64,000 nt of DNA, from assembly GCA_015178975.1 (NCBI GenBank), contig WHVD01000072.1, forward strand, positions 186,001-250,000, written 5' to 3'. The notes beneath the pieces were generated by a model. The model had not been told where the DNA came from, searched no databases, and saw nothing but the letters and a program-made list of their open reading frames with translations. A program made the position numbers and the translations under genes. The stretch is from Hysterangium stoloniferum (lineage: Eukaryota; Basidiomycota; Agaricomycetes; Hysterangiales; Hysterangiaceae). Shown here one piece after another: positions 8,697 through 37,221 of this stretch. Every line of letters starts with the position of its first letter. The first letter of the stretch is position 1.

Positions 8697-9953
8697 AACC
8701 CTCAACCTGTGTGGAGTCCAGAGAGTTGCTTACTTTTTCTTTGGTTGGAGCCACTTTCTCCTTCAATGGAGATTCCATGGAGGAAGTTGCAGCTGCATGA
8801 CCTTTAGCAGCATAGTTTTCACTACCAGGCATTCCAGGACATGATGACCAGGTTTAATGCACACGAGACAGAGGTTGTTGTCCATACAACACTGTCTTTC
8901 TTGTGGGGTAAGTTTACTGTCAGGTCTGAGTTTATGTGAGGTTGGGTTTTCTGGTTGATTGTTGTTCACCAGATTGCTGACCCTTGCCAGAGTTGTTGTT
9001 GATGATGTTGGAAGACTCCTTGTTGCTCTGCTGGTCAGATTGCATGGGGTTCTGATTGCTGGTAGACAGGTTATTATTGTTGGTTTTGTTTGCTGTGGAC
9101 TTATTGGACTTGTCCATGGGTGCCTTGCAGGTAATTTCCACTCAACATTCCCAATAGCATGAGTCTGCATTCTGAGCTTTGAGGCACATATGGGAGAGTG
9201 TCTTGGGCTTTCCATCTTCACCTTTTGAGACTTCATCCTTGAGGCAGGAAGGCAAACCAGAGTAGAATTGATGACAGAGTGTGGAAATGCCCCATTGACA
9301 ATGCACTGTAAGATTATTGAATTGGACAATATAGTTTGTGATGCCCTGGTTGTCCTTCATGTGAAGATTCATGGGGCTGTTCTCAGCTTCTCCAGTCAGG
9401 TCATATGGGCCAAAATTTGTTTCCAGTTCTTCAACAAACACATTCCAATCTTCAAGCCAGATAAGCTCTTCCTCAGTAAGTCTGCTAAATGCCAGTTTGA
9501 ACCATTTCAATGTGGATCCTGAGAGGTAAAAGAGTGCATAGTTGACTTTTTGGGAGTCCATGGAAAGGATTGGAGTCTGTGAAGAGTTCTGGAGCATTGA
9601 CTTTTGACTGTGGGGGTTCTTGAGCTTTCTTCTTTCTTTCTTTGAGCAGATGAGCCATAAATTTATCTATAGTACCTGCTAACAATTCAGAAGTAGGATC
9701 TTCAAGATGCAGTTGTTCCATGGTTTGGGGGTTTTTCAACACCTTTACCATTGTTGGGGGCTGTGGGTTTGTCCACATTCTTGGAATCATCTGAATTCTC
9801 CAGTACTTCTTCAATATGGGATTTGTCCATGGTGCCCAGGTTGTTTCTGTGTGTCTGGGTGGTATACAAAATGAGTGGTGACCAGAGAGTGGAAGCCTTT
9901 GGTACATTCAGTTTTTTGGATGGTTGTTCTGATGGCTTCTTTCTTGGAGGCAT
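8697..9953 (-). pseudogene. gag: Ty3 gag pseudogene of the element B family
   Basis: Reads from an ATG at 9953 (MPPRKKPSEQ) toward lower coordinates and is a close relative of element B gag (32316-33525). Shared landmarks in order: the LYTTQ segment, DPTSELLAGTIDKFM, SKVNAPELF, MDSQKVNYALFYLSGS, FVEELETNFGPYDLTGEAEN, and MDNNLCLVCIKPGHHVLEC, a zinc-knuckle remnant. It is split over at least three frames. CpG is almost absent where the element B copy still has many. The 5' LTR follows at 9990. Pol is missing. Confidence 0.85.
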
Positions 9954-9989
9954 GATTGAGACAATCTGTGGGATCTGATCAGAAAATAC

Positions 9990-10195
9990 TGTTAAGCATG
10001 GGGCTTATGGGTAGGTCTCTGGAGAAACCTGCAGAAGTTCTGGGGAAGGATGTGACTTCAGCTTATGTGCTGTGCCCTTGCAAGATTGTATTGTCCACCT
10101 TCAGATGGGAGTGGATGGGAAACCCATGAGTTCTGAGAATGCATTGAGGCAAATTACTAGGGGGTTACTTAGTTGATTTTCTGATTGGATTGTAT
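9990..10195 (+). repeat. Ty3 LTR, first ~205 bp
   Basis: Starts TGTTAAGCAT directly after the leader of the gag pseudogene at 8697-9953 and contains the shared LTR block CTTCAGCTTATGTGCTG (10056-10072). It ends at GATTGGATTGTAT where a MITE fragment begins. Confidence 0.75.
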
Positions 10196-10395
10196 GGAGG
10201 ATAGTCACAATTCATTGAATGTACAAAATTTTATGGAAAAGTCCTCATATTTTTAAGTGAGACTATTTCCTTTGGCTATGACTACATGTTTTAGGGTGCA
10301 TATTTCATTACCCAAAAATTTCATATTTAAGACTTGTATGCTCTTTTAAAATATGCACAAATGTCATGGTTATACAAAATTATCTGGGTTGTTAC
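10196..10395 (+). mobile_element. MITE copy 3, left 200 bp only
   Basis: Aligns base for base, with few differences, to 1301-1500 of the complete element and stops at GGGTTGTTAC. The junction on the right is an inverted copy of the LTR sequence that also borders it on the left. Confidence 0.8.
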
Positions 10396-10785
10396 ATACA
10401 ATCTGGTCAGAAAATCAACTAAGTTTTCAGACTAAATCCTCCCCCACTTACTTATTACATACCCACTCCATCCCCATCTCACAAACACTATTGACCTCAT
10501 CAGAGCCCATGGGCTTTCCAACTCGCCTTCTGACCTATCAACCTTCAACCTATCAACCTCCAACCTATCAACCTCCAACCTATCAACCTCCAACCTATCA
10601 ACCTCCAACCTATCAACCTCCAACCTATCAACTACACCTGGACTTCCCAGGTTTCCCATCCACCTGTCTGAAATTGGACATGATGATCTCGCAAGGGTTC
10701 AGCCTATAAGCTGAAGCCAAGTCCTACCAGATTATCCACAGGTTTCTCCAGAAACCCTCTGCTAAGCTTTGCATGACCCTTAACA
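10396..10785 (-). repeat. Ty3 LTR segment, inverted, with 15-bp minisatellite
   Basis: Reverse complement of an LTR start: read on the minus strand from 10785 it begins TGTTAAGG and carries the shared TTGGCTTCAGCTTATAGGCT block. At ~10540-10632 there are about six copies of a 15-bp unit, CAACCTATCAACCTC. The same LTR position in other copies (16775-16800, 33715-33760) holds a short GTCGTAGGTC-type tandem, so this site is a repeat-prone part of the LTR. Confidence 0.8.
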
Positions 10786-12322
10786 CCTGCCAGCTTTCAA
10801 CAATGGGGATTGGATGCAGGTAATCATCAGAATAAATGGAGTCCATATCCATTTATTCCCTACTCTTGGAATGAATGTAATATTCCTGAACCAGAGGAGA
10901 CTGAATATCAGGTATTTTAGTATCAATTTCAAAATATGATATAGATTAATGCTCATACTTTCATGTAGCATGCATCAAAATTTAGTGAAGACAGTGAAGC
11001 AGACATTCAAGAGCCCTACATTTTCCCTCTAAATAGACCAAACCCCAACCAGTTCAGAGGTGCAAAGGAGAGGGACTGTGTGAGGAAGCTTTGTTTGAGA
11101 AGCAGTCTGAAAGAATACTCAGAAAACAACCCAGGTGGGAATTATATAAGAGACTTAGAGTATGAAATGTTTTAATGCAAATAAAAAGGTTTTCTGTACA
11201 TAATATTCATTTTTAAGAATACATATAATACAGTATAGAACTTCTAAGACATAATATTTGAAATTGTTTTGAGCCTTGGCCCCCTGACATATGTAGAGCC
11301 TCCTTTTCCCCCTTTACTTAGATCTTAACAATATCCTGAAACAGTCCTACATCCAATTATCCCCTGATGATCTACCTTTAAACATACACAACTTTTTCAA
11401 AACCTACTGAAGCACTTGTAGCATATACAGTAAAGCCAGGTACCACCATTCTCTGCCATAGATGTTGACAAAGAAGCCATTAGATTAATTGAATATGAAA
11501 TGTTTGATACTTCAAAAGCAGCAGGGTGTGCCAGCTTTCAATAATGGGGATTGGATGCAGGTAATCATCAGAAGAAATAGAGTCCATATTTTTTGTTCCC
11601 TGCTCTTAGAATGAAACCCTAAACCCTAACCCTTATGTGTTTTCTGTATATAATCATTTTTAAGAGTATATAACACAGTATAGAACTTCTAAGACATAAT
11701 TTTTAACATTTTTTTGAGCCTCTGTCATCCACAGGTAAAGTTATTTCACCTAATGGACCCACCATACCTTACCTGAGTAGCATGGACTGATACCCCAGCT
11801 GACCCACATAACTGGCTATGTCTCACAGTGAGAGACATATACCATGAATAATACTACAAATATCTCTGGGCTTACCTGAAAAAAATTAGCTCACCCCTCA
11901 CCATCCTCCCAGTTACACCCCTGCACTGGCTTTGTGACCATGGTCCAATGTAACTGTCAGCCACATATCAAAACCCCAGCGCTCATCATTGCACATCATC
12001 ATTGTCACTGATGGTGATGTGATGGCAGCTGCACTTCCTAAATGTCTGCAAAAAGTTCCATTGTTTTTTCCTACCATTGTGTAAACATTTTCTAGTACTA
12101 TTACTTGTTTATTATGTCCATTTTCAATAAATAAAGACAAGCTTGCAGACCGAGGATCCCAAAAGAAAATTGGTTGAGATTTAGTGTGTGAAAAACTTAT
12201 TACCAAAGCAGGGAAGTGTTGAACTGCACCAACAAATGCATGACATGATATTACTTCACGTGAGTCCTCCACACTGCTGATATCACTCATCCCTCTTTTC
12301 ATCACTCCCTATCCCTTTTACA
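10786..12322. repeat. Direct repeats in otherwise unassigned DNA
   Basis: A ~85-bp segment at 10788-10870 (GCCAGCTTTCAACAATGGGG) recurs at 11528-11612, and a ~75-bp segment at 11192-11265 recurs at 11632-11705, in the same order. This suggests tandem duplication of a ~440-740-bp unit. Between the repeats, 11615-11634 reads as three CCCTAA-like units. The minus-strand ORF 11913-12305 has no recognisable domain. The DNA may be the 5' flank of the KDZ element that follows. Confidence 0.45.
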
Positions 12323-14258
12323 ATGCCCAAGGCTTCCAAGACCAAATCCACTTCATGTAAGGTAATGTCATTTGAGGTTGATAATGAAACTGGACAGGTA
12401 GTGCAGACCACTTGAGGTCCCTGCAATATAGTTCAAGCACAGGCTGACCTTAGGGTTTGATGCAAAGCTATGATAGAAAGTATGTATCTTTTTAGCTATA
12501 TTAACTCTTGCTTACCTCCATCTATCCAGGTTTGACTGTGATTGAACAAGAAGTATTGCAAGAGCATGGGGTCAGTGTGCCAACCCTTTCACCTCCCCTC
12601 CACCAACTTCTCAGAGTGGTGCAGTTGGTATGGATGCTGTGGACTCTATGGATGTAGTAGAGAATGACAGTGATGGGGATTGGGTTACTGATGTGGGTGA
12701 TAAACTGGATGAGATTTATTGTGAGTTAGAAGATAGTATATGTGATATGGAATCCAATTATGTCCATTATATTAAGTTAGTATGTTTTACTCCTTCAAAT
12801 TTTCTCTAACTTATTGCTTGGCCTGTTATGTAGAACATCTGATATCTGTGATCACCATGATCATCTCAAACATCAAAATGCAGCATGAGCATTAATACTC
12901 CCTTTGCTCATGGGTGCTCACCTTCAGTGGGAGCATACTGGACCTCCCAAAGTCATACCAGAAGTTGAGGTGCATAGTCCTATTCTTGTTATTGACCTTT
13001 TTGGTATGCTTTTTGATCTATTTGCATTGTTGATCTGTGTTGACATTGTGTTTTTAGAGAGTCAAGATGTCATGTTCCCTCTAGATGACCAAACACCCCT
13101 TAATGTAACCATGGCACATCATGGTTACTTTGGAACCCCTCACCATCCTTCAATTGCCATATTGACATCCACATTAGAATTACTCCATGTTCTGATGGCA
13201 CAATACCCTCAGCTTAGTATTCAGGTGTTTGTCAAAGGAGTTTGTGATCTGCATTGAGTAAGTCTTTAAATCTATATATCAGCTGATCTAATTACTCTGC
13301 TAGGTTCCTTATAAGTCTAGTCTTAGAACTCAAATATCCAGCACATTTGATGTTTACCTTGAAGTTTGCTGATGTATTGACATCACAATTAATGAAGCAC
13401 TCAAATGTGATACCCCTCACTGGAGAGTGCAAATTGCATGTGTCCCATGTACATATATAGTTGAAGATGAACAGCCTCTTGAATTCAGTATGCAACTTAC
13501 AGTGGATGGTAATGAATCTCTCAAAAGCTGTGAATGGAACCATGGACAAAAGGATGAGCAAGGCCATATGATCAATTCTCCAAGTATTGAATGCATGAAC
13601 AGCTATCAAATAAACTGTATCTTTGCTGGCAGGATGTTAACATATTCAAGAATGAGGTCAAACATCATAGGATATCTACTTCCACTTCAATGGTGGGGCT
13701 AATTTTGCCCTTTAATCTCTGTTATTATCTTACTTATATCCTTTCAGTCAAATAAAATAGCCCCCATGGAGCCTGCACAGCATTTAGTCTTTTTGGCTGA
13801 TGACCTGGAAGGATGGCCCATTGATGGAGTAGAAGAGGTTACCCCCTGTGTTCAACCATGGGCCAACCTCACTGATGAGAGGAAGAAGAATCAATTAGGC
13901 CTCTTTGATGAGACTGGCCTCTTCCTTTCAGTATGCTGACATGGAGTTGCACTAGTTATGTGTGATATGGTACACAGTGGTGAGCTGTAAGTGTGGTTTC
14001 CATTCTTGTGAATGAGTCATTGATACTCTGGCATTCTATTACAGAGCCAAGTATGCTCTAGCAGTCTCCAATGAGGTAATAGACACATTTGGTGACCATC
14101 TAATGATAGGATATGACATTGGATGCAGATTTTCAAAGACAGCCAACAGCAGTCCACTGCTTGGACCCAAGATCTGCAAGCATAAGACTAGGTTCTGTGT
14201 TGGATCCGTTCATGGTCATGCACACTGTTGCCTTTGTCAAATTGACTGGCATCCATCA
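12323..14258 (+). pseudogene. KDZ-superfamily transposase pseudogene (5' part)
   Basis: Spliced gene remains of a Kyakuja-Dileera-Zisupton transposase. A likely start is MPKASKTKSTS at 12323. Landmarks follow in family order: GYFGTPHHPSIAILTSTLEL and LSIQVFVKGVCDLH (13110-13255), then CVPCTYIVEDEQPLEFSMQL and TVDGNESLK (13437-13535), then GLFDETGLFLSVC-stop-HGVAL (13900-13950), and AKYALAVSNEV, GYDIGCRFS, GSVHGHAHCCLCQ (14045-14240). A clean intron (GTAAGT...TTACAG, 13987-14044) rejoins SGEL with AKYAL. The TGA at 13937 stands where the family has Arg (CRHG). The gene ends abruptly at a Tc1 insertion (TA at 14259). Its 3' half was not found in this window. Confidence 0.85.
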
Positions 14259-16617: not shown

Positions 16618-17389
16618 TGTTAGGATACACAGGGTGGGTCTCCAGAGAAACCCACGGGATATCCAGTAGGACTTGGCTTCAGCTTATAGGCTGCACCCTC
16701 GCTACATCGTGTCGTCCAATTTCGAACAGGCAGACGGGAATCCCGGGGAGTCTGGGTGGGGTTCGTGGGTCGTAGGTCGTAGGTTGTAGGTCATGAGTTG
16801 TGAGTCGAGATCATTGAGAGAGATAGATGTGCTGGAGCCTGTGGGCTCTGACTAGTGTGAGCGGTCTGATAAGAGTAGGGTTTTAGGGCGGAAAATATAT
16901 TAGATTACTGGGGGGAATCTAAGCTAATTTTCTGACTGGATTGTATGTACAACATCTGCCAGTTTAAATAGACCGTGGAGTGAATAACATACCAAATCCA
17001 GTAATGACGAAACGAAACTAACAAAACATAAAACGGGAATAATAAACACCAAGTTTGGTGTTAGGAATGGGACGGAACGGAGTGGAGTCCAAATCGTGAC
17101 AAAGCATAACCCATAACGGGAAATGGAGCGGGAGCGGAGTCCTAAATCGTGACAGGTCATTTGACTAAAACGGGAATGGGGCTCAATTAGAGCGGTGATG
17201 GGATTCTGAGCGGGATCTGGTGACTGATGCGTGGGACGAAGACGGACATAGACAGAGACGGAGTCCAGGGGAAGTCCGGTGACTGATATGTGTCGTAATG
17301 AGGTCGAACTAACGAGTCTTGATGTAACGGAGTCCGGGCAGGAAATCCTATAAACAGACGATTGGTGCTTGTAGCACGTGGGGGCGTAC
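16618..17389 (-). repeat. 3' LTR of element B, major part
   Basis: Starts (plus sense) TGTTTAGGATACACAGGG, matching the TGTTAGGATACACACA start at 33562, and runs collinear with the solo LTR 35873-36690. At CGTAC (17385-17389) it is broken by element C; the LTR resumes after a second CGTAC at 27031 and ends TTGTAACA at 27076. Confidence 0.9.
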
Positions 17390-18095
17390 TGTCAGGGCAA
17401 TATATATAATATATATTTTTGCCATTTATTTTGATTTTAGTTTATTTTAACTAAATCTACATGTAGCAGTACAAGCATGGTACGAAAGCGATTACGTAAT
17501 CGCGTTGCCACCCGCACGAAAAGCAGCGCGGTGCAGTAGCACCGCAACATAACGAAGCGGTGGCACGACGCGAATGACGGCGTTGACATAATGCCGACGC
17601 TGCCACCCAAGACCCAATGGTCATACAGAGGCGGCCGCGCAGCAACACAGCGACACGGCACAATAGCACCGCGATGCGATGTAATGGCGGCACGGCGCAA
17701 ACGACGGTGCCGCCTACGCCCCGACAGACACACAGTGCGAAGCACTGTGTGTCCATGGAGGATTCCCTGTGCGCCATCACTGCAACAGCAGTTGGACCTA
17801 CACAGCGCCACACAGAATTACACAGCACCGCGCGGGATTACATAAGCGCCGAAGCGCAGCTATGCAATGTAAGGTGCATACATGACATTTTTAGTATTCT
17901 TCTTAGATTTTTCATAAATAAAAAATATTAAATAAATAGTATAAATAGGGGGCATGTACATAGTTGATCTTTAGTTTCAATCTTAGGAATCCCACTAAAA
18001 CAAGTGTGATCTCCCCTGTCATTGAGCTATCTCCTTTTCACTTTATTTTTGTGTTTTATCTTGTGTTTGGTAGCCTTGTTAGTGTTGCCCTAACA
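17390..18095 (+). repeat. 5' LTR of chromovirus C (706 bp)
   Basis: Comprises an AT-rich U3-like start, a CpG-dense module at ~17480-17860, a TATAAATA box at 17941-17948 followed by ATAGGGGGCATG, and a T-rich end. Only about two units of the ATTACACAGC-containing 20-bp repeat occur (17798-17845). The TATA placement suggests transcription starts downstream of ~17970 (inference). Confidence 0.9.
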
Positions 18096-18545
18096 GAAGA
18101 TTGAAACTCTCTAAACAACTCTACCATCTATCTCTCAAATCTATTCTCCTTTTCCTCTCCCTTATAACTCCCCACATCCAATTCCCCATTCCTCCATCTA
18201 TCAACCTCTCAGGCTCTGGGCACTGTCAAACAAATCTTCCTTATAGTGTGTTGTGACCTTTTTACTTAGGAACACCAACTGTTGGGGCTGGTTCTCTTTT
18301 GAGACAGCTTTTAGTTCTCCAGAAAATATCCAGGTAGTCAATCCTGTGATTCTGGGATCAAGCTCAAAAAGCTGACAACTGGGTGTTCAGTGAAATGATT
18401 AAATAGTCCTTTTAGTTTAAGTAGATAAGTGTGATCAAGGGCACTTTTGTAGTTAATTTTCTTTTACACACACACTCCTGAGGAAAGATCAGTGCACAAC
18501 CTACCCTATTGGACCCCACCTCTTTTTTCCCTTTTAACAGATACC

Positions 18546-19477
18546 ATGGATACCTCTTCCTCTCCCACATCCTCTACTCCTTCTATTCAAGAGTTGCTGC
18601 AAAAGATACTTCAGATGCAACAGCTTTTGAAAGAACTTCAGCCATCTCTAACCACCTCATCAGCTAAAACCTTGAAAGTAGCTACTCCAGATCCTTTTGA
18701 TGGATCTCAGAAAAAAACAGAAACTTTTATTTCCCAACTCATGCTCTATTTTCATGGGAAGAAGGTAAAGGATGACTCTGACAAGATAATCTTTGCCCTA
18801 TCTTACATGAAAGGAGGCACTGCTGAACCTTGGGCCAAACTCAAAGTCAAAGAGTATAACAACAAGGGTGTTGACTCTTGGGAGAACTTTGTAGAGGAGT
18901 TCAATCAGACTTTTGGAGACCCCAACCTGCCAGTACAGCTAGGCATAAGCTGAATCAACTCAGACAAGGATCACAGAGTGCTGAGGAGTACATTTCTCAG
19001 TTCAAACAATTCAAAGAGGATACATTGTACAATGATGCAGCCCTCATTGAGAAATTTGAACAGGGACTCAACTCTGCCTTGGTTGATAAGATATATGCTC
19101 TCCCAGAAATGCCTACTACCTTGAAAGAATGGTTTGAATGGGCCACCAGATTAGATAGACACTGGAGACAAAGGGAGGCTAGTAGAAGAAACTTTGGCCA
19201 GTCTTCCAAATCCCATAAACCAGCCATACTCCAGAAAAATATCCTGCCCAGCCAAACAGCCCAGACTGCTAAACCATCTAAGGCTGTACCTATGGAAGTA
19301 GATTCAGGATGGAAGGCTGTCAGACCTCTCATATGTTTCAAGTGCAGAAAGCCAGGACATAAGGCCACTCAATGCAACTCAAAGATGGATATTAATAGTA
19401 TGGACTTTGATGCTCTGAAGGCCTATATGAAGGAAGAATTGCAGAAAGAGCAGGGTGGACAGAAAGAGGATTTTTAA
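18546..19477 (+). pseudogene. gag: Chromovirus C gag, one frameshift
   Basis: Structural protein of the retrotransposon particle. ATG at 18546 (MDTSSSPTSST); the longer upstream reading lacks an ATG. Residues 15-40 are a Q/L-rich predicted coiled coil. Then comes a retrotransposon gag core (TPDPFDGSQKKTETFISQL, WAKLKVKEYNNKG), which changes frame at ~18938, where one base appears to be missing between CAG and CTAGG. It continues in the other frame as KLNQLRQGSQSAEEYISQFK and a CCHC knuckle CFKCRKPGHKATQC at ~19340-19380. Stop TAA at 19475-19477. No CpG occurs anywhere in it; Arg is always AGA/AGG. Total length about 310 codons, normal for this class. Confidence 0.9.
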
Positions 19478-19497
19478 AGGCACCATTGGTGAAGGAC

Positions 19498-22400
19498 ATG
19501 TCCCAATGGAGTAATAGATTTAGTATATTAGAGGATCCCAAAGAAATTATCTCAAATCAATCAGAAACTCTAGACACTAATTCAGAACCCATGTCAGCCC
19601 CACCCTCTCCAGAAAATCCCCCTCAAAGAATTTATATCAGAAGTCTTAACCCCAAAACCTCTACCCAGCTTCCTATTGTTCTCAGGTCTTTGGACACAGG
19701 AGTTAGAATGTCAGTAACTGTACTATTAGACAGTGGAGCTACTGGTTCCTTTTTGGACAAAAGATTTGTGGAATACCACAATCTCAATACAATTAAACTC
19801 CCCAGACCTATCCCTGTCTACAATGTTGATGGGACATTAAACCAAGGAGGCTCTATCCATGAAGAAGTAGAATTGACAATGATCTTCAAAGATCATACAG
19901 AAAAGGCACTCTTTGCTGTATGTGACCTTGGAGACAAATCTTCAATTATTGGACATACTTGGCTCTTTCACCATAACCCTGAAATCAATTGGAGAACTGG
20001 ACAAGTAGATTTGACTAGGTGTCCACCTGAATGTTCTCTCCAGATTAGGAAAATCAAGAAAGGTAGACAAAGGAAGGCAGCAGAGTCTAGAAGGAAACTT
20101 CCTAGTATCATTGAGGATGCAGATGAAAATGATGAGGAAGATGATCAGCTAGGAGTTGAAGACAGTGACAGGATCTGGATTACAACTATCTATCCTCAGT
20201 CTAATATCAATGCTACTTCTACTGTATCACAGAAGTTGGCAGAGGAATCTCATAAACAAGACCAGAAGAAAACCTTTGAGGAACTAGTTCCAAAATGTTA
20301 TCACCAGTTCAAGGGAATATTTTCCAAAGAGTTTTTTGACAGATTGCCAGATAAGAAACCCTGGGATCATGCCATTGAATTGAAGCCTGGATCAGAACCT
20401 TTTAGAAGCAAGCTCTATCCTTTAGCACCACATGAGCAGAAGGAACTGGATGAATTCTTAGGAGAGAACCTTAAAAGTGGAAGGATCCAACCCTCCAAGT
20501 CTCCTATGGCATCTCCAGTGTTCTTTATAAAGAAGAAGGATGGCTCTTTAAGATTGGTCCAGGATTACAGAAAGCTAAATGACATCACAATCAAAAACTC
20601 CTATCCTCTACCACTCATCTCTGACATTATCAGCAAGTTGAAGGGAGCCAAATACTTCACTAAGTTGGATGTCAGATGGGGCTATAACAATGTCAGAATA
20701 AAAGAAGGAGATGAATGGAAAGCAGCTTTCAGAACCAATAGAGGACTGTTTGAACCATTGGTCATGTCATGTTCTTTGGTCTTACCAATAGTCCTGCTAC
20801 ATTTCAGACCATGATGAATGACTTGTTCATAGAGTTGATTGATGGTCAAGTTGTCATTGTCTACATGGATGATATTCTTATCTTCACAAACACTTTGGAA
20901 CAACATAGAGAAGTGGTCAAAAGGGTCTTTGAAATATTGGAGAAAAATAAGCTTTATTTGAAAGCAGAAAAATGTGAATTTGAAAAGGAAAAGATTGAAT
21001 ATCTTGGACTTATTATTTCACATGGCTGCATCTCCATGGATCCAGTGAAGATAGAGGGTGTCTCCAAATGGCCAGAACCTACCACAGTCAAGGAGATTCA
21101 ATCTTTCCTAGGCTTTGTCAACTTCTACAGAAGGTTTATCCAGGACTTTGCAAAAATAGCCAGACCCCTTCATAATCTAACAAGGAAAGATACAGCATGG
21201 AAGTGGACTATGGAAGAAAAGGCAGCCTTTCAAGGCTTGAAGGACAAGGTCACTTCATCTCCAATTCTTGTCTTTCCTGATGACAGCAAACCCTACAAGT
21301 TAGAGGCAGACAGTTCTGACTTTGCAACAGGTGCTGTCTTGTCTCAGGAAGGACCAGATGGAAAGTGGCACCCTGTAGCCTTTTTATCTAAGAGTCTGAA
21401 TGAAGTGGAAAGAAATTATGAAATCCATGATAAAGAAATGCTGGCTATCATTAGAGCTCTGGATGAATGGAGGCACTATCTTGAAGGGAGTAGTCATACC
21501 TTTCAAATCTGGACAGACCATAAAAATCTGGAGTACTTTATGTCTGCCAAAAAACTAAATAGGAGGCAGGCTAGATGGTCCCTGTTTTTGTCCAGATTTG
21601 ACTTCACCTTACATCATAGGCCTGGTAAAAGTTCCCTGAAACCAGATGCTCTATCCAGAAGACCTGATCATGGGAAAGGAGAGAGGGATAATGAAGATAT
21701 TACCCTTCTCAAACCTTCTTATTTCAGGATCCAAGCTCTTAAACAGGGTCATGCTATATTAGTAGGACAGGAGACAGATCTGCTGAAGAAAATCAGACAG
21801 GCCAAAGATATGGAGGAAGTGGTAGTCAAGGCAGTAGAAGAACTGAAAAAATCAGGGAGTAAAAGAATTGAAGGCACAGAGTGGGCAGAAGAACAGGGTC
21901 TCATTCTCTTCAAAGGGAAAGTCTATGTGCCAAAGGATATGGAGCTTAGAAGGCAGATTGTTGAACTGCATCATGATGTTCATACCAGTGGCCACCCAGG
22001 CAGATGGAAGACCTTAGAATTGGTCTCCAGGAATTACTGGTGGCCAGGAATCTCCAGATTTGTTGCATCTTATACCAAAGGATGTGATAGGTGCAATAGA
22101 ACTAAGACATATCCTGCCAGTCCTGTTGGAAAGGTTGTACCAACCCAGATTCCTAAGGACATTTGGGAAATCATCACTGTGGATCTGATTACTGGACTAC
22201 CAGAAAGCCAAGGATACAATGCCATCATGGTAGTAGTGGATAGACTTAGTAAAATGATTCATATCATACCCACTACAGACCAGATTACTTCAGAAGGCAT
22301 TGCTAGGCTCTATAGGGACAATGTATGGAAACTCCATGGTCTCCCTTCACAGATCATCAGTGACAGAGGACCCCAGTTTGTCTCAAAATTCACAAGAGAG

Positions 22401-23250
22401 CTGAATTCAATCCTAGGGATCAAAGTTGCAGCTTCTACAGCCTATCATCCTCAAACAGATGGCCAGACAGAAAGAGTAAATCAGGAGGTAGAACAATACC
22501 TTAGACTCTTTGTGAATCACAGACAGGATGATTGCAGAATGGTTGTCTTTAGCAGAATTCTGCCATAACAACAGAGTTCAAGCATCTACTAGGCAGACAC
22601 CTTTTATTTTGAATAATGGCAGGCATCCTAGATTGGGGACTGAGCCTTTTAGAAGCAGCCAAATAAAATCTGTGGAGCAGTTTATTAAAGACATGCAGGA
22701 GGCAAGGAAAGAAGCAGAAGCTGCACTTCATAGGGCTGCTGATGATATGGCTAGATACTATGACCAGTCTAGAAAAGAGGCAGACATCTATAAGCCAGGA
22801 GATAAAGTATGGTTAGAAGGCAGAGACATTCAGACAGACAGGCCATCTAAAAAACTAGAAGACAAGCGATATGGACCCTTTGAAATCACCAAAGTTATTG
22901 GTCCAAATGCTTATGAGTTGAAATTGCCTTCTTCCATGAAAATCCATCCAGTCTTCAATGTAGCCAAGCTCAGGCCTTTCCATGAGGACACAATTCAAGG
23001 GAGGATACCTCCAGTTAGGCCTCCTCCAGTTGTAAAAGGAGATACTCTTGAATGGGAGGTTGAATATATCAAAGATAGCAGATTGGCAAGGGGAAAACTA
23101 CAATACCTGGTGAAATGGAAAGGGTACCCTCAAGAAGAATGCACATGGGAACCTGCTGACAATCTTGGAAACTCCAAAAAATTAGTGGATAAATTCCATA
23201 GCCAACACCCCTTTGCGCCCAGAAGAATCTCTGCTTTAACCTTCAATTGA
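19498..23250 (+). pseudogene. pol: Chromovirus C pol: PR-RT-RH-IN-chromodomain, two small lesions
   Basis: Polyprotein for reverse transcription and integration. First ATG in frame is 19498; the pol frame is offset from gag, consistent with frameshift or re-initiation. Protease LLDSGATGSFLDK (~19728-19765); RT with [19 protein letters not shown] and YMDDILIF (~20862); RNase H with EADSSDFATGAVLSQEG (~21303), WTDHKNLEYF; integrase with zinc finger (HTSGHPGRWKT, CDRCNRTK), catalytic D in TVDLITGLP, D in ISDRGPQFVSKF, E in GQTERVNQEVEQ; chromodomain YLVKWKGYPQEECTWEPADN at ~23100. Lesions: a 5-bp tandem duplication TCATG (20762-20771) inside RT, and an apparent 2-base loss near 22533 in integrase. 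No nonsense codons and no CpG until 22867. Confidence 0.93.
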
Positions 23251-24046
23251 CTCCCTTTTCAAGAATATATCAAATTTACAGAGACTGTGACTCAAACTGA
23301 AACCCTTTAACCTCCAAGCAAGCTTTATTATCAACTTATAGTTATCAAGTGATTAATGAAGTGAAACCTTTGCAGTGGGATTGACCCCTTCACTGGCATG
23401 CTTGGGTGGATAATTCATTTTTGTGGTGTTCCTGAACGGAGTTCGGGCAACAGTGAAGTTGTTAGCTCTGGTGCATACACTTACAATTGAGTTATGGTTT
23501 AATTGGATGAGTACATTCATCCGGGAAACAGATGTCAGGGGTAACACAATTAGCAAGTGTTATGACATCTCAAAGATGAACTTAATGTCAGATATGCAAC
23601 CAGAATCCCCTTCATTATCTCCTTTATGAGATAAAAGCCCGCCTTACTGCCTGATCGGATTGTATACAATTCGACAAGGTAGCTTAAGGTTAAGTTAAGA
23701 TTACAGGTGGATATTACATTCTTTGGAACTTGATGGTATTTGTCCCCTAAAGTGGTGTGGCCGTCTCTTGGCTTCTTTCTTATCATCCTATTCCCCCTGA
23801 GAAGCTTCCAAATTGAGGAAGTTTTCAAAGCCAATGATGATATGGATTACGACATAGAAGCGCTGATTAAATAGAAGTCATGGACATGTGACCAATGGGA
23901 AAACCATAATCAAAGGGAAATTAAAAGAATTTAATTTGACTCAAGGTTTTAGAAAGTTCAATCGGAAAGCTACCAATAGGGCTAAAAGCTTCAAGTTATG
24001 GTCACAGTCACAAGCTCAAATTCTTATATTTACTTTGGCACTCGAG
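23251..24046 (+). other. Post-pol spacer of chromovirus C
   Basis: Between the pol stop and the downstream ORF. CpG reappears here abruptly (from ~23436). Open reading continues without an ATG from 23867 into the ORF at 24047 (LNRSHGHV...), so an upstream exon or a readthrough start is possible. I see no other feature. Confidence 0.4.
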
Positions 24047-24565
24047 ATGACTTTTACACAACCCAATCAGTTCAATCAGATGTACGAATATTCCACTATG
24101 TTCAATACTGCTTCATCATCTAAAGTGACCCTTGACCACTACTCAAAGTCAACTCCTCCCTCTTTTATCGAACTTAAACCAATGCCCTCGACCTTCTCAC
24201 TACGTTCAGAATTCATACCTGAACCCAAACCACTCCTCTCATACGAATCCAAGGAATATCGTCATTATCTCCATCAAATAGGCCTTCGACTCCCATATGC
24301 TCCAGACGATCCTGTCTTCATTCTTATACACCACAATGATGGCACCTCTGAATTCCTCCAATATCGATTCGATAGTGTAATCTATCGACAACACCCCTCA
24401 CCATCACAGGAATTTTATTACGACGCAAGGTTCACTCCGATAGGAGATCACAGAGGACCAAATGTGTACAGGCTCCAGATCCCTAAAGGAAGTTACATAG
24501 AGCCCCATCCAGGTCGTCGTCGATTTGTGTTCCTTGCGTGGTTGAGGAGTGTGCTCCGCTTATGA
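24047..24565 (+). CDS. Unknown 172-aa ORF between pol and the 3' LTR of chromovirus C
   Basis: Intact ORF from the first ATG in a longer open frame (open since 23867). The N-terminal 20 residues are Q/N/Y-rich (MTFTQPNQFNQMYEYSTMFN), the middle is Ser/Pro-rich, and the C-terminal half reads like a compact domain: EYRHYLHQIGLRLPYAPDD, VFILIHHNDGTSEFLQYRF, YRLQIPKGSYIEPHPGRRR. No signal peptide, membrane span or zinc motif is visible, so it does not resemble an envelope protein. Arg codons include CGA and CGT, unlike the CpG-free gag-pol upstream, which suggests a different origin. I do not recognise the family. It lies in the same orientation as pol and inside the element by LTR boundaries. 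Confidence 0.6.
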   Translation: MTFTQPNQFNQMYEYSTMFNTASSSKVTLDHYSKSTPPSFIELKPMPSTFSLRSEFIPEPKPLLSYESKEYRHYLHQIGLRLPYAPDDPVFILIHHNDGTSEFLQYRFDSVIYRQHPSPSQEFYYDARFTPIGDHRGPNVYRLQIPKGSYIEPHPGRRRFVFLAWLRSVLRL

Positions 24566-24973
24566 ATTCAGCATAGGTATGAGTTGCACTCCTTATACTG
24601 CAAGATTAGGGTCCAAGCACGTCCAATCTTGGTCCTGAAGAGGAGTATTGTTAGGATTTCTAAATCAAGCATAGCGTTTGAAGCCATCACTTCTATCATT
24701 CATATCATTCCATCTCATCCTTGTTTGTCCTTCACCATGTGGTTTAGCGCAGCCTCCCCCTTTATTAGTCACAGCATTACAAACATTCTTACTATGATGA
24801 CTCAGATGTGCCTCACACCTCACACCATATTGCGTCATTATTGTATGTCATTGTAGATGCTTGTTTTCACCTGTGCTTTCTCATACATATATGGATACAT
24901 ATCTGAGTGGACAATGTTAGGATTAGGGACACATATTGGAGTGTCGGAATGCCACTCCTTAAAGAGGGGGTGA

Positions 24974-27030
24974 TGTCAGGGCAATATATATAATATATAT
25001 TTTTGCCATTTATTTTGATTTTAGTTTATTTTAACTAAATCTACATGTAGCAGTACAAGCATGGTACGAAAGCGATTACGTAATCGTGTTGCTGCCCGCA
25101 CGAAAAGCAGCGCGGTGCAGTAGCACCGCGACATAACGAAGTGGTGGCATGACGCGAATGACGGCGTCGATATAACGCCAACGCTGCCACCCAAGACCTG
25201 ATGGTCATACAGAGGTGGCCGCGCAGCAACACAGCAACGCGGCGCAATAGCACCGCGATGCGATGTAATGGCGGCACGGCGCAAATGACGGCGCCGACAT
25301 AACGCCGATGGCGCCGCCTACACCCCGACAGACACACAGTGCGAAGCACTGTGTGTCCATGGAGGATTCCCTGTGCGCCGTCACTGCAACAGCAGTCGGA
25401 CCTACACAGTGCCACACGGAATTACACAGCACCGCGCGGAATTACACAGCACCGCGCGGAATTACACAGCACCGCGTGGAATTACACAGCACCGCGCGGA
25501 ATTACACAGCACCGCGCGGAATTACACAGCACCGCGCGGAATTACACAGCACCGCGCGGAATTACACAGCACCGCGCGGAATTACACAGCACCGCGTGGA
25601 ATTACACAGCACCGCGCGGAATTACACAGCACCGCGCGGAATTACACAGCACCGCGCGGAATTACACAGCACCGCGCGGAATTACACAGCACGCGCGGAA
25701 TTACACAGCACCGCGCGGAATTACACAGCACCGCGCGGAATTACACAGCATTACACAGCACCGCGCGGAATTACACAGCACCGCGCGGAATTACACAGCA
25801 CCACGTGGAATTACACAGCGCCGCGCGGAATTACACAGCGCCGCGAGGAATTACACAGCGCCGCGCGGATTACACAGCACGCGCGGAATTACACAGCGCG
25901 GAATTACACAGCGCCGCGCGGAATTACACAGCGCCGAATTACACAGAATTACACAGCGCCGCGTGGAATTACACAGCGCCGTGCGGAATGGAATTACACA
26001 GAATTACACAGCGCCGCGTGGAATTACACAGCGCCGCGCGGAATTACACAGGAATTACACACCGCGCGGAATTACACAGCACCGCGCGGAATTACACAGC
26101 GCCGCGCGGAATTACACAGCGCCGCGTGGAATTACACAGCGCCGCGCGGAATTACACAGCGCCGCGCGAATTACACAGCGCCGCGCGGAATTACACAGCG
26201 CCGCGCGGAATTACACAGCGCCGCGCGGAATTACACAGCGCCGCGCGGAATTACACAGCGCCGCGCGGAATTACACAGCGCCGCGCGGAATTACACAGCG
26301 CCGCGCGGAATTACACAGCGCCGCGCGGAATTACACAGCGCCGCGCGGAATTACACAGCGCCGCGCGGAATTACACAGCGCCGCGCGGAATTACACAGCG
26401 CCGCGCGGAATTACACAGCGCCGCGCGGAATTACACAGCGCCGCGCGGAATTACACAGCGCCGCGCGGAATTACACAGCGCCGCGCGGAATTACACAGCG
26501 CCGCGCGGAATTACACAGCGCCGCGTGGAATTACACAGCGCCGCGCGGAATTACACAGTGCCGCGCGGAATTACACAGCGCCGCGCGGAATTACACAGCG
26601 CCGCGTGGAATTACACAGCGCCGCGCGGAATTACACAGCGCCGCGCGGAATTACACAGCGCCGCGCGGAATTACACAGCGCCGCACGGAATTACACAGTG
26701 CCGCGTGGGATTACACAGTGCCGCGTGGGATTACACAGTGCCGCGTGGGATTACACAGTGCCGCGTGGGATTACATAAGTGCCGAAGCGCAGCTATGCAA
26801 TGTAAGGTGCATACATGACATTTTTAGTATTCTTCTTAGATTTTTCATAAATAAAAAATATTAAATAAATAGTATAAATAGGGGGCATGTACATAGTTGA
26901 TCTTTAGTTTCAATCTCTTAGGAATCCCACTAAAACAAGTGTGATCTCCCCTGTCATTGAGCTATCTCCTTTTCACTTTATTTTTGTGTTTTATCTTGTG
27001 TTTGGTAGCCTTGTTAGTGTTGCCCTAACA
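24974..27030 (+). repeat. 3' LTR of chromovirus C (2057 bp, expanded)
   Basis: Collinear with the 5' LTR (17390-18095) on both flanks but ~1351 bp longer because of the minisatellite at 25412-26775. Outside the array the two LTRs differ mainly by transitions, many at CpG. Since both LTRs are copied from one template at integration, the length difference arose during or after insertion. Confidence 0.95.
25412..26775 (+). repeat. 20-bp minisatellite, about 68 units, inside the 3' LTR
   Basis: Unit CGCGGAATTACACAGCGCCG (20 bp), near-perfect in long stretches and scrambled by partial units at 25690-26160. Each unit contains the 8-bp palindrome CCGCGCGG. Variants are zoned: CAGCACC units on the left (to ~25800), CAGCGCC units in the middle, CAGTGCCGCGTGGG units at the right end (26690-26775). 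Most other variants are CGCG to CGTG. All three plus-strand frames stay open because the unit has no stop in any frame, so the long ORFs across it are not evidence of coding. Confidence 0.97.
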
Positions 27031-27076
27031 CGTACGGGTTAGTGCCCGGAGTCTGGCGGGATTGTCCAGTTGTAAC
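27031..27076 (-). repeat. Element B 3' LTR, terminal part after the element C insertion
   Basis: Begins with the second CGTAC copy and completes the LTR split at 17389, ending TCCAGTTGTAACA as in the solo LTR at 36690. Confidence 0.9.
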
Positions 27077-27286: not shown

Positions 27287-28325
27287 ATGGGACCAAAGCC
27301 CATGCCGCGCAAGCCTATGCCAACCACTGGGCCCTCCACAGGCAATCAGTACCGGGTGCCACTCACCGCTGCCCAAATTTTGGTGCAGCGGGATGAGCAA
27401 CGTCGACAGCGAGAGGAGGCAGAGCGAGAAGCCCGAGAGGTGGAGGAGGCCCTGAATAGGGAGTACCAGGTGGCAGTGGCTGCAGAGGAAGAGGCTGTGA
27501 GGCAGAAACAGAGGGATGAGGAGGAGGCTGCGCGGGTGGCCACGGAGAAGGCCAAGGTAGCGGCAGAGAAAGCCTGGGTTCCCGCGGAGAGAGCCACGAT
27601 TGTTGCAGGGAAGGTAAGTCCCATCATTCGACTTGTTGTGTTTTTTTTTGACTTGGTGTTTTCAGCGCAAGGCAGCGGAAGTCAAGTCGGAGTCCGAGGG
27701 AGAGGCAGAGAGCCCCAACAAGGTAAGTCTTGTGTCCGTGGGAATACCGTGGAGCTAACCGTATCAACAGAAAGCAAGGAAGGTGGTGCCAGTCCACCTG
27801 CCGACTCGGAACGACCCACGGTGTTCCGGTTGTAATGACCGGAACACTGAGTGTAATTGGAAGTCCAGCCGGGGCCCGGGATGCTACCAGTGTGCGCACC
27901 TCAAGGCAAGGTGCTCACTTGTTCACGAGCAGGCCACAGGGTCCGGTAGTACATGGGAAAGTGGCGGGTCAGACGGGTACTCCGGTCTGGAGGAGGTTTT
28001 GGGACGGATCGCTGACGGGATAGAAGCCCAAAATGAGTTGCTCCGGAAGGGCAACAAGGTCAGTGTGGTCATGGCCACTGATCTCCATGCAATCCACGGG
28101 GACCATTTTACATTCCTGAGGGACTATGCAGGTTTTGTAAGTGAGAAGCTAGAGGACGGGAGTTCCGAGGTGGCCGGTTCAGATGAGGAGGGGGTGCCCG
28201 CGGAGGTCACGGAACTAACCAAGGAGATGAATGCCATGGGAAAGGCTGAGGTGGAAAAAGCTGAGGTGGAAAGACAGGAGGCGGGGAAAAAACATAGCCC
28301 TATCAATGTAGATGAAGAAGAGTAG
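27287..28325 (+). CDS. Zn2Cys6 zinc-cluster protein, spliced, antisense within element B
   Basis: Three exons: 27287-27613, 27666-27722, 27771-28325; introns of 52 and 48 bp both start GTAAGT and end CAG, and the second has a CTAAC branch site. The product is 312 aa. Residues ~35-105 form a charged, Ala/Glu/Arg-rich coiled coil (EEAEREAREVEEALNREYQ). Residues ~145-175 hold CSGCNDRNTEC...CYQCAHLKARC, which fits the C-X2-C-X6-C-X9-C-X2-C-X6-C Zn(II)2Cys6 pattern. The C-terminus is acidic and ends INVDEEE. Zn2Cys6 proteins are usually DNA-binding regulators; function here is unknown. It has no stop or frameshift although pol on the other strand is broken. Its stop lies ~195 bp from the pol stop, tail to tail. 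Confidence 0.75.
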
Positions 28326-28520
28326 AATAGTAATAATAATTTTTTGAGTATAAAGTAAAACGTGAAAAACATAAAAATAAAAGTCAAAGTCAAAGTCCGC
28401 GGGTAATCCGCTTGAGGACTTGACAAGACATATCAGAACCTGTAAAAGCAAAGAGAGACATAGGGCGACAGGGAATAATGAAAATGAGTCCAAACGTAAC
28501 ACGGGGTCTGCAGAGTGCAG

Positions 28521-31500
28521 TCAGAGAGACGATAATGGTCCAGGTTTGAGTGGGTAAGCTGAATGAAAGTCAGTAACGATTTCTGTGGCATTACCGAGTT
28601 CCATGGCCAAAATCCATGAGGTCTCTTCATCGGTGCCCTTGTAACCCGCCCACTTGACCAAGTAAAGCAGTTTACAAGTGCATCGATGCTTGTCAATTTT
28701 TGAATCTAAAATCTGTGAGATTTCAAACTCGGGTTCTCCGTCAATGATGACCGGAGGGGGCTGAGATTGCACACGATCCGGGATAGTGTTAGCAGTACAA
28801 GGTTCTAGCATAGAAACATGAAATACCAGGTGTACCGCGCGCATGCTATCCAGAAGCCATAGGGTCCAAGAAACTGAACCTACTTGTGCGATTATTTCAA
28901 ATGGACCTAAATATTTTTCAGCAAGCTTTTTTGATGGACGGGTAGTCCTAAAGAATTGAGCTTTGACATAAACACGGTCGCCTATCTTGAAGTTGGGTGG
29001 TGGGATCCGGTGTCTGTCCACTGAAAGTTGGTATTGCTCTTGGGCAGACAATATTGCAGTCTGGAGTTCCTCATGGAGCTCATGGAGGTCCGTGGTGAAC
29101 TCTTGAGCGCGAGCAGAGGTGAGATTTTGTTCTGGATGTACTGTAATATTTGGATTATATCCTTTATTTGCAAAGAACAGGGAAACGCCAGTAGTGGCCG
29201 AAGGTGCATTGTTGTAAGCAAACTCTGCAAGTGGTAGCAAGGATTTCCAATTGTCCTGTTGGTAATTGCAATATATGCGGAGATATTGTTCCAAGGTCTG
29301 GTTGACATGTTCGGTTTGTCCGTCGCCTTCCGGGTGATGTCCGGACGTGAAATGTAAGGTCATGTCCAAGGATTTTCTGAGGGATCTAAAGAAGTGAGAC
29401 ACAAACTCTGATCCTCTGTCGGAAGTCATGTGGGACGGAACTCCATGCTTGGAAAATATGTGGATGATGAAAAGCTCCACTAACTGCACGGATGTAATTG
29501 TATCATGTGTAGGGATGAATATACCTTGTTTTGAGAATCTGTCAACAATGACTAGAATAGCGGAAAAGCCTTCGGAATCCGGTAGGTGTTCAATGAAATC
29601 CATAGAGATAGAATTCCACGGATGTTCCAGTACCGGGAGTTGTTTCAAAAGGCCATATGGCTCGTGTCGCTGAGATTTCGAGCGGGGACAAGTAGTGCAA
29701 GATTTACAATAGTGCTTAACGAATCCACGGAGTCCGGGCCAAGTATATTCTCTTCTTATTAATGATAGAGTTTTGTTGTACCCGAAATGTCCTGAGAGTG
29801 GATGATCATGTTTGTATTGAAGGATCCTGAGGCGGAGGCTGTCGGAGTCCAGTACATAGATGTGATCGTCAAGTCTAATGAAACCATGCTGATCAAGAGA
29901 CCACCGAGGTTGATCGGGGTCCACGGGATTGTCAAGGTGAGCTTTAGTTATCGGGTCTAGCGGAATTGCTGATAGAATATCTTGATGTAGCTTCTCAATA
30001 TCCATAATGACAATTCCACGGACAATGGGATTGATGAGGAAAGTTGCACAGACCGATGCGGTAAGTTGTTGATTCGTGAAAATAGGTTTCAGGTTGTGCA
30101 GATTTACTGTTACATAGTCGTTGCTCCCCTCTTTAGGATAGACGTCCCATCGTCTAGTTAAAGCGTCGGGTTTGCTGCTGAGATGGCCGGGTTGAAAACA
30201 GATAATCATGTTGAAGGCAGAAAGATATTCAGACCAGCAGGCCTGCCGGCGAGTCAAAAGTTTTGTGGTAGAAAAGTATTCCAGGTTTTTGTGATCTGTT
30301 ACAACATCAATAGGAGCTCCTGAACCTTCCAAATAATGTCGCCACGCTTTGAAAGCTGAAAAGATTGCCAGAAGTTCTTTATCATGAACGTCATAGTTGA
30401 GCTCTGCTCTGGTAAAAGTCTGGGACAGAAAAGCCACGGGGTGGACTTCTCCGTCGGAGTCCTGGATAGACAGAATGGCTCCAAGTGCATAATCCAAGGC
30501 GTCCGTTTCAACAATGAGCGGGAAGTCCGGTTTCCAATGTGACAGAATAGGAGCTGTAGAAAAAGAATTTTTTAAAAGATTGAAAGCTTTGTGACACTTA
30601 TCGTTGAAATTCCACAGAGTACCCTTGCGCATAAGACAGGTAAGGGGTACCGTGATGTCGGAATATCCACGGATAAACTGTCGGTAAAAATTGGCAAAGC
30701 CGAGGAAGGATTGTATATCTTTGACTTTTCAGGGTTCAGGCCAATCTTTGATGACTTGCACTTTAGTTTCATCCATGTGGAGTCCGTTGGGTCCCATCAA
30801 GAAACCCAGGTATTCCACGGAGTCCGTGTCAAAAGTACATTTTTTACCATTTGCAAATAAACCATGTTTTCTAAGCCTCCGGAGAACTTCACGGACTTGT
30901 TTGTCGTGTTCTGCGGGATTCTCGGAGTAGATAAGAATGTCGTCCAAGTAAACAATGACGCATACATCGAGCATGTCAGAGAAAATGTCGTTGATAAAAT
31001 GCTGAAAAACAGAAGGAGCATTGGTGAGTCCAAAGGGGATCACCAGCCACTCAAAAGCCCCATAACGGGTTCTAAAAGTGGTTTTCCATTCATCGCCTGC
31101 GGCGATCTGGACCAAATGATAGGCATGCTTGAGATCTATTTTGGTGTAAATCTGGGCATTCCACGGAGCATCGAGCAGATCAAATATCAGTGGGAGTGGA
31201 TATTTATCCTTTTTGGTGACAGCATTGAGGCCTCTGAAATCAACACATAGTCTAAGGGATCCATCCTTTTTTCTGACAAACAGAACAGGTGCTCCAAAAG
31301 GAGATTTTGAGGGTCAAATAAAACCTATGGACAAATGTTCATCCAGGAAGTCACGGATTACTGAAAGTTCCGTGGACGAGAGCGGGTAAATATGTCCTAG
31401 GGGTGGCTGGGCGCCATCTTCAAGATCGATTTTTAAGTCGTAGTCTCTGTGAGGCAGAAGCCGGTCAGCTTTCCACTTGCTAAAAACATCCATGAAGTCA

Positions 31501-32319
31501 TAATATTTCTCCAGGATGCCTTCTAGGTCAGCGGCTTGCTCAGATTCGGATACTGGTGTTGAAAAATGTCCAGTTGCTTCATCAATTTTTAAGTTGATAG
31601 TGAACGCCTGGGATCCATCCATTTTTGAAGCCCTAATAAAAGCTGCAGCATTAATCAGAGAAATAGACGGAGGTGCCGTGGGTTCTGGGGAAGCTATAGG
31701 TGCCGTAGGGATCACAGGAGTCCTCGAGACTGCAGGTGCCAGGAAGGCCATGGGTGCCATGGAGGCCGGGTCAGGTGCAGTTTCCTCGGCTGCCGCGGGA
31801 GTCCGGAATGTTATACTGTTAGCTATCCAGTCAATCAACGGATTGTAGCGGGTAAGCCAGTTATGTATCTCCTAGGACCACCAAGCAACTTGAGTCTAAC
31901 TGGGTCACATAGAAAGTGACCAATTGAGATGTTCCACATGGGAAACTGATGGGTAAATCACAAGCTTGGGTAACAACCAAATTACTTGTGCCATCAAAAA
32001 GGCAGAGGCCGACGGGATTTATCGAATAGGTTGACAAAGAATTTTTTTGCGTGAATTTTGTATCTAAAAAACAATGAGTAGAGCCGGAATCTATGAGAGC
32101 TGAGAAAATGAATTTCGGGATCATATTAGACATAAGTTTAACGAAAAATGAATCAGAATGTGAGAGAGTGGATGCGTTGAGACGAGTAAACTCTTGAATG
32201 CGCGGAGAGGCAATGCAACCCCCAACCCACGTGGAGTCCGCGGGGTTGCTCACTCTTTTTTCGAGTCGGAAGCCGGTTTGTCCTTCGACGGGGTTTCCGT
32301 GGAGGCCTTGGCTGTTCAT
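28521..32319 (-). pseudogene. pol: Element B pol: PR-RT-RH-IN-chromodomain with two CGA-type stops
   Basis: Protease FSALIDSGSTHCFLDTKF (~32080); a frame break near 31850, where extra bases follow VVLG. From 31838 to 28521 there is one frame, broken only by TGA at 31314-31316 ([16 protein letters not shown]) and TGA at 30729-30731 (WPEP-stop-KVKDIQSFLGF), both positions where the family has Arg. [17 protein letters not shown] and YLDDILIYS (~30935). RNase H: ETDALDYALGAILS. Integrase: HPLSGHFGYNKTLSL, CTTCPRSKSQ, SMDFIEHLPD, TSDRGSEFVSHFFRS, GQTEHVNQTLEQYL. Chromodomain: LLYLVKWAGYKGTDEETSW (~28640), of normal position and length. Coding DNA retains many CpG, unlike element C. Confidence 0.93.
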
Positions 32320-33525: not shown

Positions 33526-33561
33526 AATGAAAACAATCTGCGAGTATTAGTCAGAAAATAC

Positions 33562-36690: not shown

Positions 36691-36695
36691 CCATA

Positions 36696-37010
36696 TGAAT
36701 CTAAAAGCATCTATGTGAATCTTAAAGAATCTATCTGAATCTATGTGAATCTAAAAGAATCTAAAAGAATCTATCTGAATCTACGTGAATCTAAAAGAAT
36801 CTATCAGAATCTATCAGAATCTAAATAAATCTACCTGAATCTACATGAATGTAAAAGAATATGCCTGAATCTAAAAGAATCTATAAGAATCTATCAGAAT
36901 CTATCAGAATCTATCAGAATCTATCAGAATCTATCAGAATCTAAATGAATCTACCTGAATCTACATGAATGTAAAAGAATATGCCTGAATCTAAAAGAAT
37001 CCTCTTAAAT
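36696..37010 (+). repeat. GAATCTATCA-type 10-bp tandem array
   Basis: Roughly 30 units of a 10-bp motif varying as GAATCTATCA, GAATCTAAAA, GAATCTACCT, GAATCTATGT. The array starts at 35838-35872 on the far side of the solo LTR. No coding potential. Confidence 0.85.
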
Positions 37011-37221
37011 ATTTGTGAATCCCACTGTACCCTTCCAAACAATTGTGAATCATGCTCAATCAGGAAAAATCAGTTCAAGGTTTCTCATCTTGAAAAACCT
37101 TTAAGAAACTCATGTGAAATTGTTAATTTCTTCAAGATTTCACCAACACATTTTTTCAATTTCCATAGTGTTTGTGGCCAAGGAAAATCTTGTTGAAATC
37201 TATACTTATTCAATGATTTCC

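Follow-up and report, generated by a model that had tools for sequence, protein, structure and literature searches.

A 64,000-nucleotide stretch of the genome of the basidiomycete Hysterangium stoloniferum (contig WHVD01000072.1, positions 186,001 to 250,000, forward strand; hereafter the window, whose numbering is used throughout) contains a long terminal repeat (LTR) retrotransposon whose body is devoid of CpG dinucleotides over most of its length. The element is a Ty3/gypsy chromovirus: it has LTRs, a target-site duplication, the order gag, protease (PR), reverse transcriptase (RT), RNase H, integrase, and a chromodomain. Comparison with relatives in the same genome indicates that its body belongs to a fungal chromovirus lineage of low copy number that already lacked CpG when it inserted here. 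Transposons that have lost CpG are generally taken to bear a scar of silencing, but here the loss is a heritable trait of the donor lineage. The explanation that we favour, with about even confidence, is that a CpG mutator emptied the synonymous sites and that selection among copies for codons surviving it completed the purge.

Region 18,096-22,866 (4771 bp, GC content 41.2%) contains no CpG, versus 202.5 expected from base composition. This recount agrees with the original prediction, a reading of the letters that reported zero CpG in this region, a CG at 22,867 and an expectation of about 200 at roughly 42% GC. The gap is in fact longer, running from 17,857 to 22,866 between flanking CpGs at 17,855 and 22,867; it spans the end of the 5' LTR, the leader, gag, PR, RT, RNase H, integrase and part of the integrase C-terminal region, and it is the longest CpG-free gap in the window, the runner-up being 2035 bp. 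Because the observed/expected (O/E) ratios in 18,096-22,866 are 0.77 for GpC, 1.18 for TpG and 1.23 for CpA, the loss is CpG-specific. At the codon level, the earlier statement that all arginines are AGA or AGG (AGR) and that TCG, CCG, ACG and GCG are absent also stands: CGN accounts for 0/79 arginine codons and NCG for 0/1408 codons, C occupies 0/147 third positions preceding a G, and NCG makes up 0/98 of the NCR codons (N, any base; R, A or G). Elsewhere in the window, region 8865-14,206 has a CpG O/E of 0.02 with a strong TpG and CpA excess (1.44 and 1.38); it resembles ordinary decay and contrasts with the body of the element.

The genome assembly (111.1 Mb, 554 contigs) was searched for relatives, and 20 family copies were fetched out of 59 match rows, together with six loci from a group at about 78%. 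The original prediction had pointed to the CpG content of other copies, young ones among them, as the place where a CpG-free donor would show. In all 20 family copies (92-98% identity) the homologous stretch has 0-6 CpG, versus 57-211 expected. The seven copies that retain more than 4 kb of the stretch carry 1-4 CpG each, and all three without any CpG are fragments, so that the zero of the window copy is only slightly under the family level. All six ~78% relatives have 1-8 CpG in 2.2-3.6 kb. Young copies give the same picture: L010, L011 and L012 (L numbers denote loci in the assembly), whose LTR pairs have 3, 12 and 13 non-CpG differences in about 600 sites, hold just 2-4 CpG in their bodies. 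In the LTR pair of the window copy, 33 of 52 CpG sites are kept in both LTRs; the other 19 differ, all as CG/TG or CG/CA, while other sites differ at 5/602. Since all 20 copies are CpG-poor and the window LTRs, which are of the same age as the body, keep 33/52 CpG sites, the donor was already CpG-free, as had been predicted. The earlier argument, that the element lies in the LTR of an older yet CpG-bearing element (element B), is also borne out: element B has 31/646 non-CpG LTR differences, as opposed to 5/602, and a CpG O/E of 0.74 over 27,300-33,550.

The CpG-poor state is moreover long-lived. Between the window copy and L010-L012, synonymous divergence (dS) is 0.07-0.08 and omega, the ratio of nonsynonymous to synonymous divergence, is 0.11-0.14; the values are 0.04 and 0.38 for L009, and 0.83-1.04 and 0.06-0.12 for the ~78% group. 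Across 26 loci compared with the window copy, omega is 0.06-0.16 in 15, 0.18-0.51 in ten and 1.03 in one (L024, 249 codons), and L010 has an open frame of 1298 codons across RT. The CpG-poor state has thus persisted across a synonymous divergence of about one change per site, in a lineage under purifying selection with its proteins in use.

CpG loss is not genome-wide. Twenty RT loci elsewhere in the genome were hand-picked from 150 listed of 3086 candidates, rows recognised as the window family or the ~78% group being omitted; 15 have a CpG O/E of 0.99-1.60 and use CGN for 68-89% of their arginines, and five have an O/E of 0.31-0.49. In a tree (midpoint root; L020, L031 and L032 dropped because their match was below 150 aa; L029 and L033 on long branches), these five group with the window clade, with a support of 100/100 for the 14 rows jointly and 98/97 for the five, which we call the sister group. 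In sister loci L043, L046, L048 and L054, C occupies third positions before G in 10/191 cases, versus a fraction of 0.60 before other bases, and NCG makes up 5/138 of NCR codons, but 72/91 arginines are CGN. The corresponding values for the fifth locus, L044, are 0/33 versus 0.66, 0/22, and 17/20. Judged from these codons, synonymous CpG is almost gone in the sister group and CGN is retained, which is the pattern of mutation plus protein constraint; the sister group would thus be an intermediate stage in which CpG persists where its loss would alter the protein. CpG-rich, half-emptied and CpG-free families therefore coexist in one genome, and two apparent steps are visible, synonymous sites first (sister group) and arginine codons second (window clade). 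An AT-rich RT family (L037, L041 and L050) has a GC content of 35-38%, a CpG O/E of 1.1-1.6 and, within 1 kb, 2-6 stop codons in frame.

The second step is a recoding of arginine. At the 17-20 sites where the sister group has CGN, L010 has AGR at 8-9, Lys at 2-3, His or Gln at 1, Cys or Trp at 0 and other residues at 4-8. Conversely, at the 15 AGR sites of L010, the more distant L036 has CGN at eight and AGR at none, L047 has six and two, and L051 four and three, respectively, so CGN was likely ancestral at most conserved arginine sites. As the change from CGN to AGR requires a C-to-A substitution, deamination cannot supply it.

A CpG mutator is evident in resident copies. Pooled over the LTR pairs of four elements and corrected for double losses, CpG transitions are about 30 times as frequent as other transitions; this ratio (k) is 30, 137 (on a single transition), 23 and 30 in the individual elements, with element B at 23. 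The synonymous CpG level of the sister group fits k values of about 18 and 27, near the measured 30. Sequence matches suggest that the genome has two DNA methyltransferase (DNMT) genes, one DNMT1-like and one DNMT5-like: a gene at L057 matches BAH (below the Pfam cut-off) and DNA_methylase, and the best solved-structure match of a DNA_methylase gene at L056 is 7r76, a molecule named Rad8 in the database, which we take to be Cryptococcus DNMT5. A profile search with 2OG-FeII_Oxy_6, presumably a family including TET/JBP-type enzymes, gave no match, but its control was also without a match anywhere.

In the first stage of the mechanism that we favour, CpG hypermutability, probably through deamination of 5-methylcytosine, would have stripped synonymous CpG as in the sister group, while purifying selection shielded the proteins. 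In the second, copies with AGA/AGG arginines would have escaped missense and stop hits at CpG, stayed functional longer and given rise to later copies, until CGN had disappeared. The body would end up largely immune to the mutator, and CpG-free copies would be expected to be usable for longer and likelier to be the next source. The predicted load illustrates the stake: at 22% CpG loss per resident copy, 12 loci of other groups would suffer 3.7-10.4 missense or nonsense mutations per kb of RT, and the RT of the window copy none from CpG transitions.

Several results weigh against this explanation. In the window copy, fourfold degenerate sites before G have A 74, C 0, G 13 and T 49 (before other bases, A 78, C 108, G 24 and T 109). 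With stratification by amino acid, T would be expected at 94 sites if the lost C became T, or at 69 if it were shared out, and A at 33 or 51; lost C was thus replaced by A more than by T. The TpG/CpA ratios of the body (1.18/1.23) are far lower than those of the decayed repeats at 8865-14,206 (1.44/1.38); element B has 1.11/1.20. At equilibrium with k = 30, 7.9 synonymous CpG would be expected in the window copy and none is observed (P 4e-4). Between the window copy and L010, k is only 4.9 (0-18) in the module that precedes the 3' LTR (3' module) and 0.4 (0-4.5) in U3; resident copies lose CpG in U3 and module fast, though the transmitting lineage shows little or no hypermutability there. Finally, the support of the window's own clade in the tree is only 82/93. 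The shortage of T is softened by its scarcity before G in CpG-bearing families too (0.21 and 0.25 versus 0.22-0.49). The six ~78% relatives summed have A 175, C 3, G 54 and T 175 at fourfold sites before G, and in the sister group T before G rises more, to 75/180. For the strength of the purge, a k of about 100, which one LTR pair (k 137, on one transition) allows, would fit, with 2.4 synonymous CpG expected at equilibrium. Pure C-to-T decay within the donor lineage is nevertheless insufficient, because of the arginine recoding, the replacement by A, the weak TpG/CpA excess and a purge beyond k = 30.

New CpG are nearly absent from the transmitted lineage. Of 26 loci, 22 were set against the window copy for CpG-creating changes. 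Synonymous transitions creating CpG number 0/233 between the window copy and L010, when 12.5 are expected without pressure and 6.4 at k = 30 (P 1.6e-3), and 1/381 and 0/185 in comparisons with the ~78% group, in which other sites differ at 417/1294 and 518/1319. Together with the arginine recoding and the low k of U3 and module, these missing changes suggest that the mutator was assisted by selection among copies. At CpG-capable sites, the ratio is 1.4-28 in control groups (18 pairs listed; the largest group, with 36 pairs, is represented by 12). The sister group has ratios of 0.2-1.0 in nine pairs, and 20.5 in the closely related pair L043-L054. Individual copies do acquire new CpG: 43 of 45 CpG positions occur in a single copy, and CpG creation among the bodies of L010, L011 and L012 is nearly normal (ratio 0.74-0.86, 3-6 events each), which argues against a strict mutational block. 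This comparison covered seven body rows and four module rows. When columns with fewer than six rows were excluded, CpG-creating changes were single in 22 cases and shared in two (723 sites), versus 154 and 57 for other T-to-C or A-to-G changes (1988 sites); this difference is borderline (Fisher P 0.048), and both shared cases are confined to L010 and L011. In five sets from other groups, private CpG gains are 5/82, 1/91, 4/106, 17/81 (a set of three rows, hard to polarise) and 7/120, and other T-to-C changes in the same sets are 9/200, 0/229, 4/208, 3/219 and 10/132.

Full arginine recoding and near-absent new CpG in the transmitted lineage thus call for selection, which may be for mutation resistance and not for evasion. 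Survival of usable copies is its cheapest form; stealth against methylation is a bolder one. In the latter, copies with CpG in the transcribed unit would be methylated and silenced, leaving transcription and transmission to CpG-free copies, with methylation downstream of the start and not in U3 being decisive. We think this rather unlikely, and give the same modest chance to its full version, in which the lineage was selected copy by copy for a transcription unit without CpG and with all arginines recoded, leaving a body that is unmethylatable at CpG and transcribable in heterochromatin and a U3 renewed by swapping with other families. Stealth would account for CpG-creating changes that are so rare in transmission while new CpG keep appearing in single copies, for an exclusion that spans the part after U3 and fails in module and U3, and for the arginine recoding, which demands selection. 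However, U3, where the promoter probably lies, is rich in CpG and undergoes CpG mutation once inserted, the sister group retains CGN, each single synonymous CpG would need strong selection, CpG-normal families make up 15/20 of the sampled RT loci, and the single-versus-shared test is borderline. Because U3 (O/E 1.33) and the 3' module have CpG, the element is not, taken as a whole, out of reach of CpG methylation. The evolved evasion of genome defence proposed in the original prediction is therefore not shown; methylation evasion is possible, as a weaker reading than mutator plus selection.

Selection acting on RNA or translation, independently of DNA methylation, to remove CpG or the codons CGN and NCG (through tRNA supply or RNA decay) seems improbable to us. 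The stretch is mostly translated, and the fact that both A and T took the place of C before G fits any kind of CpG avoidance, but the R/U5 region and the untranslated leader of the window copy are also CpG-free, the 3' module, presumably transcribed too, has CpG, and families with 68-89% CGN account for 15 of the 20 sampled RT loci. We hold horizontal transfer of the body from a host with extreme CpG loss, its composition being retained, to be very improbable. The composition is indeed sharply unlike that of most other sampled families, and protein relatives are named in other fungi; against this, the sister group, resident in this genome as well, is in a graded state, and a CpG-free state held over a dS of about 1 needs maintenance wherever it arose. 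Simple post-insertion C-to-T decay, in this copy or in every copy independently, whether RIP-like (repeat-induced point mutation) or by deamination, is real and fast in LTR pairs but is refuted by the results as an origin of the body: the donor was CpG-free, the window LTRs still share 33/52 CpG sites when the body has none, L010-L012 with few LTR differences carry 2-4 body CpG, the older element B retains CpG, arginines are intact as AGR, the TpG/CpA excess is weak, and coding constraint was kept in the lineage.

Chromoviruses of other Agaricomycetes (Lyophyllum shimeji, Pleurotus cornucopiae, Amanita and Mycena) have the same order of gag, PR, RT, RNase H, integrase and chromodomain; the window element is characterised by a body with zero CpG and arginines that are all AGR, those relatives being named from protein matches. 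CpG depletion of Basidiomycota transposable elements through deamination of 5-methylcytosine or RIP-like CpG mutation is already in print (PMC4352252, PMC4014442, PMC12774611); those elements share with the LTR pairs described here the CpG transitions in repeats, but they are decaying copies, whereas in the present case CpG is missing from the donor lineage itself, with synonymous recoding of its arginines. The promoter of ONSEN is reported to lack CG and CHG sites (PMC3907296). Both are LTR retrotransposons with a part lacking methylatable contexts, but in ONSEN this is the LTR, whereas in the window element U3 is CpG-rich and the body is free. In a study of DNMT-carrying retrotransposons, CG observed/expected ratios were tested as a mark of self-methylation (PMC5890265). 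Unlike those retrotransposons, the window element has no methyltransferase domain among the Pfam matches in its six scanned frames. At the level of titles and abstract openings, our literature search recognised no CpG-free or arginine-recoded retrotransposon lineage, and no donor lineage in which a body without CpG goes together with recoded arginines and a U3 rich in CpG. The case opens a test of whether a host CpG mutator selects for transposons beyond its reach.

The element is flanked by a target-site duplication, CGTAC, read at 17,385-17,389 and 27,031-27,035. Its 5' LTR (17,390-18,095; TGTC...AACA) consists of U3 (17,390-17,855; the CpG O/E of 1.33 refers to this part) and an R/U5 part without CpG (17,856-18,095), the U3/R border being inferred. 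It is followed, all on the forward strand, by gag with capsid and CCHC motif in two overlapping, broken frames (18,453-19,477), PR and the initial portion of RT (19,411-20,814), the remaining RT, RNase H and integrase (20,754-22,568), and the integrase C-terminus (SH3_Tf2-1) with the chromodomain (22,516-23,250), in which the first CpG lies at 22,867. Pfam matches comprise the Ty3 capsid, zinc knuckle, protease, RT, RNase H, integrase, Tf2-1 SH3 and, at the integrase C-terminus, the chromodomain (PF00385, E 1.4e-18). The frames of this copy are broken, gag, RT and integrase each shifting frame.

The CpG-bearing 3' module (23,315-24,973) terminates, ahead of the 3' LTR, in a purine-rich tract; it was matched in L009-L012 and not in the other 16 fetched copies, many of which are fragments. 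An accessory open reading frame of 232 aa within it (23,867-24,565) has no Pfam match, but at least 151 match rows in the genome, its own and sister copies included; most of the others among the matches listed share 47-71% identity, and many cover the same span (47-230) and have an open frame of 192 aa. U3 relatives with 76-86% identity occur at 22 places outside the four full-length copies. In the 3' LTR of L012, U3 differs by 11-12% at non-CpG sites from the sister copies, the bodies by only 1-3%, which points to a U3 exchange. U3 and 3' module thus look modular, and were probably taken over from CpG-bearing families. Locus L055 has the LTR end, leader, module and LTR of the window element, and RT, integrase and chromodomain queries gave no match between its leader and module; it is possibly a non-autonomous relative.

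The 3' LTR (24,974-27,030) includes, at 25,403-26,775, a tandem array of about 69 copies of a CpG-rich 20-bp unit; as the 5' LTR has just one or two copies, the array expanded or shrank after insertion. Further downstream, a tandem array at 36,695-37,001 has periods of 10, 20 and 30 bp, and an inverted repeat of 473 nt (34,930-35,402 and 37,218-37,690; 98% complementary, 1815 nt apart) flanks an LTR of element B.

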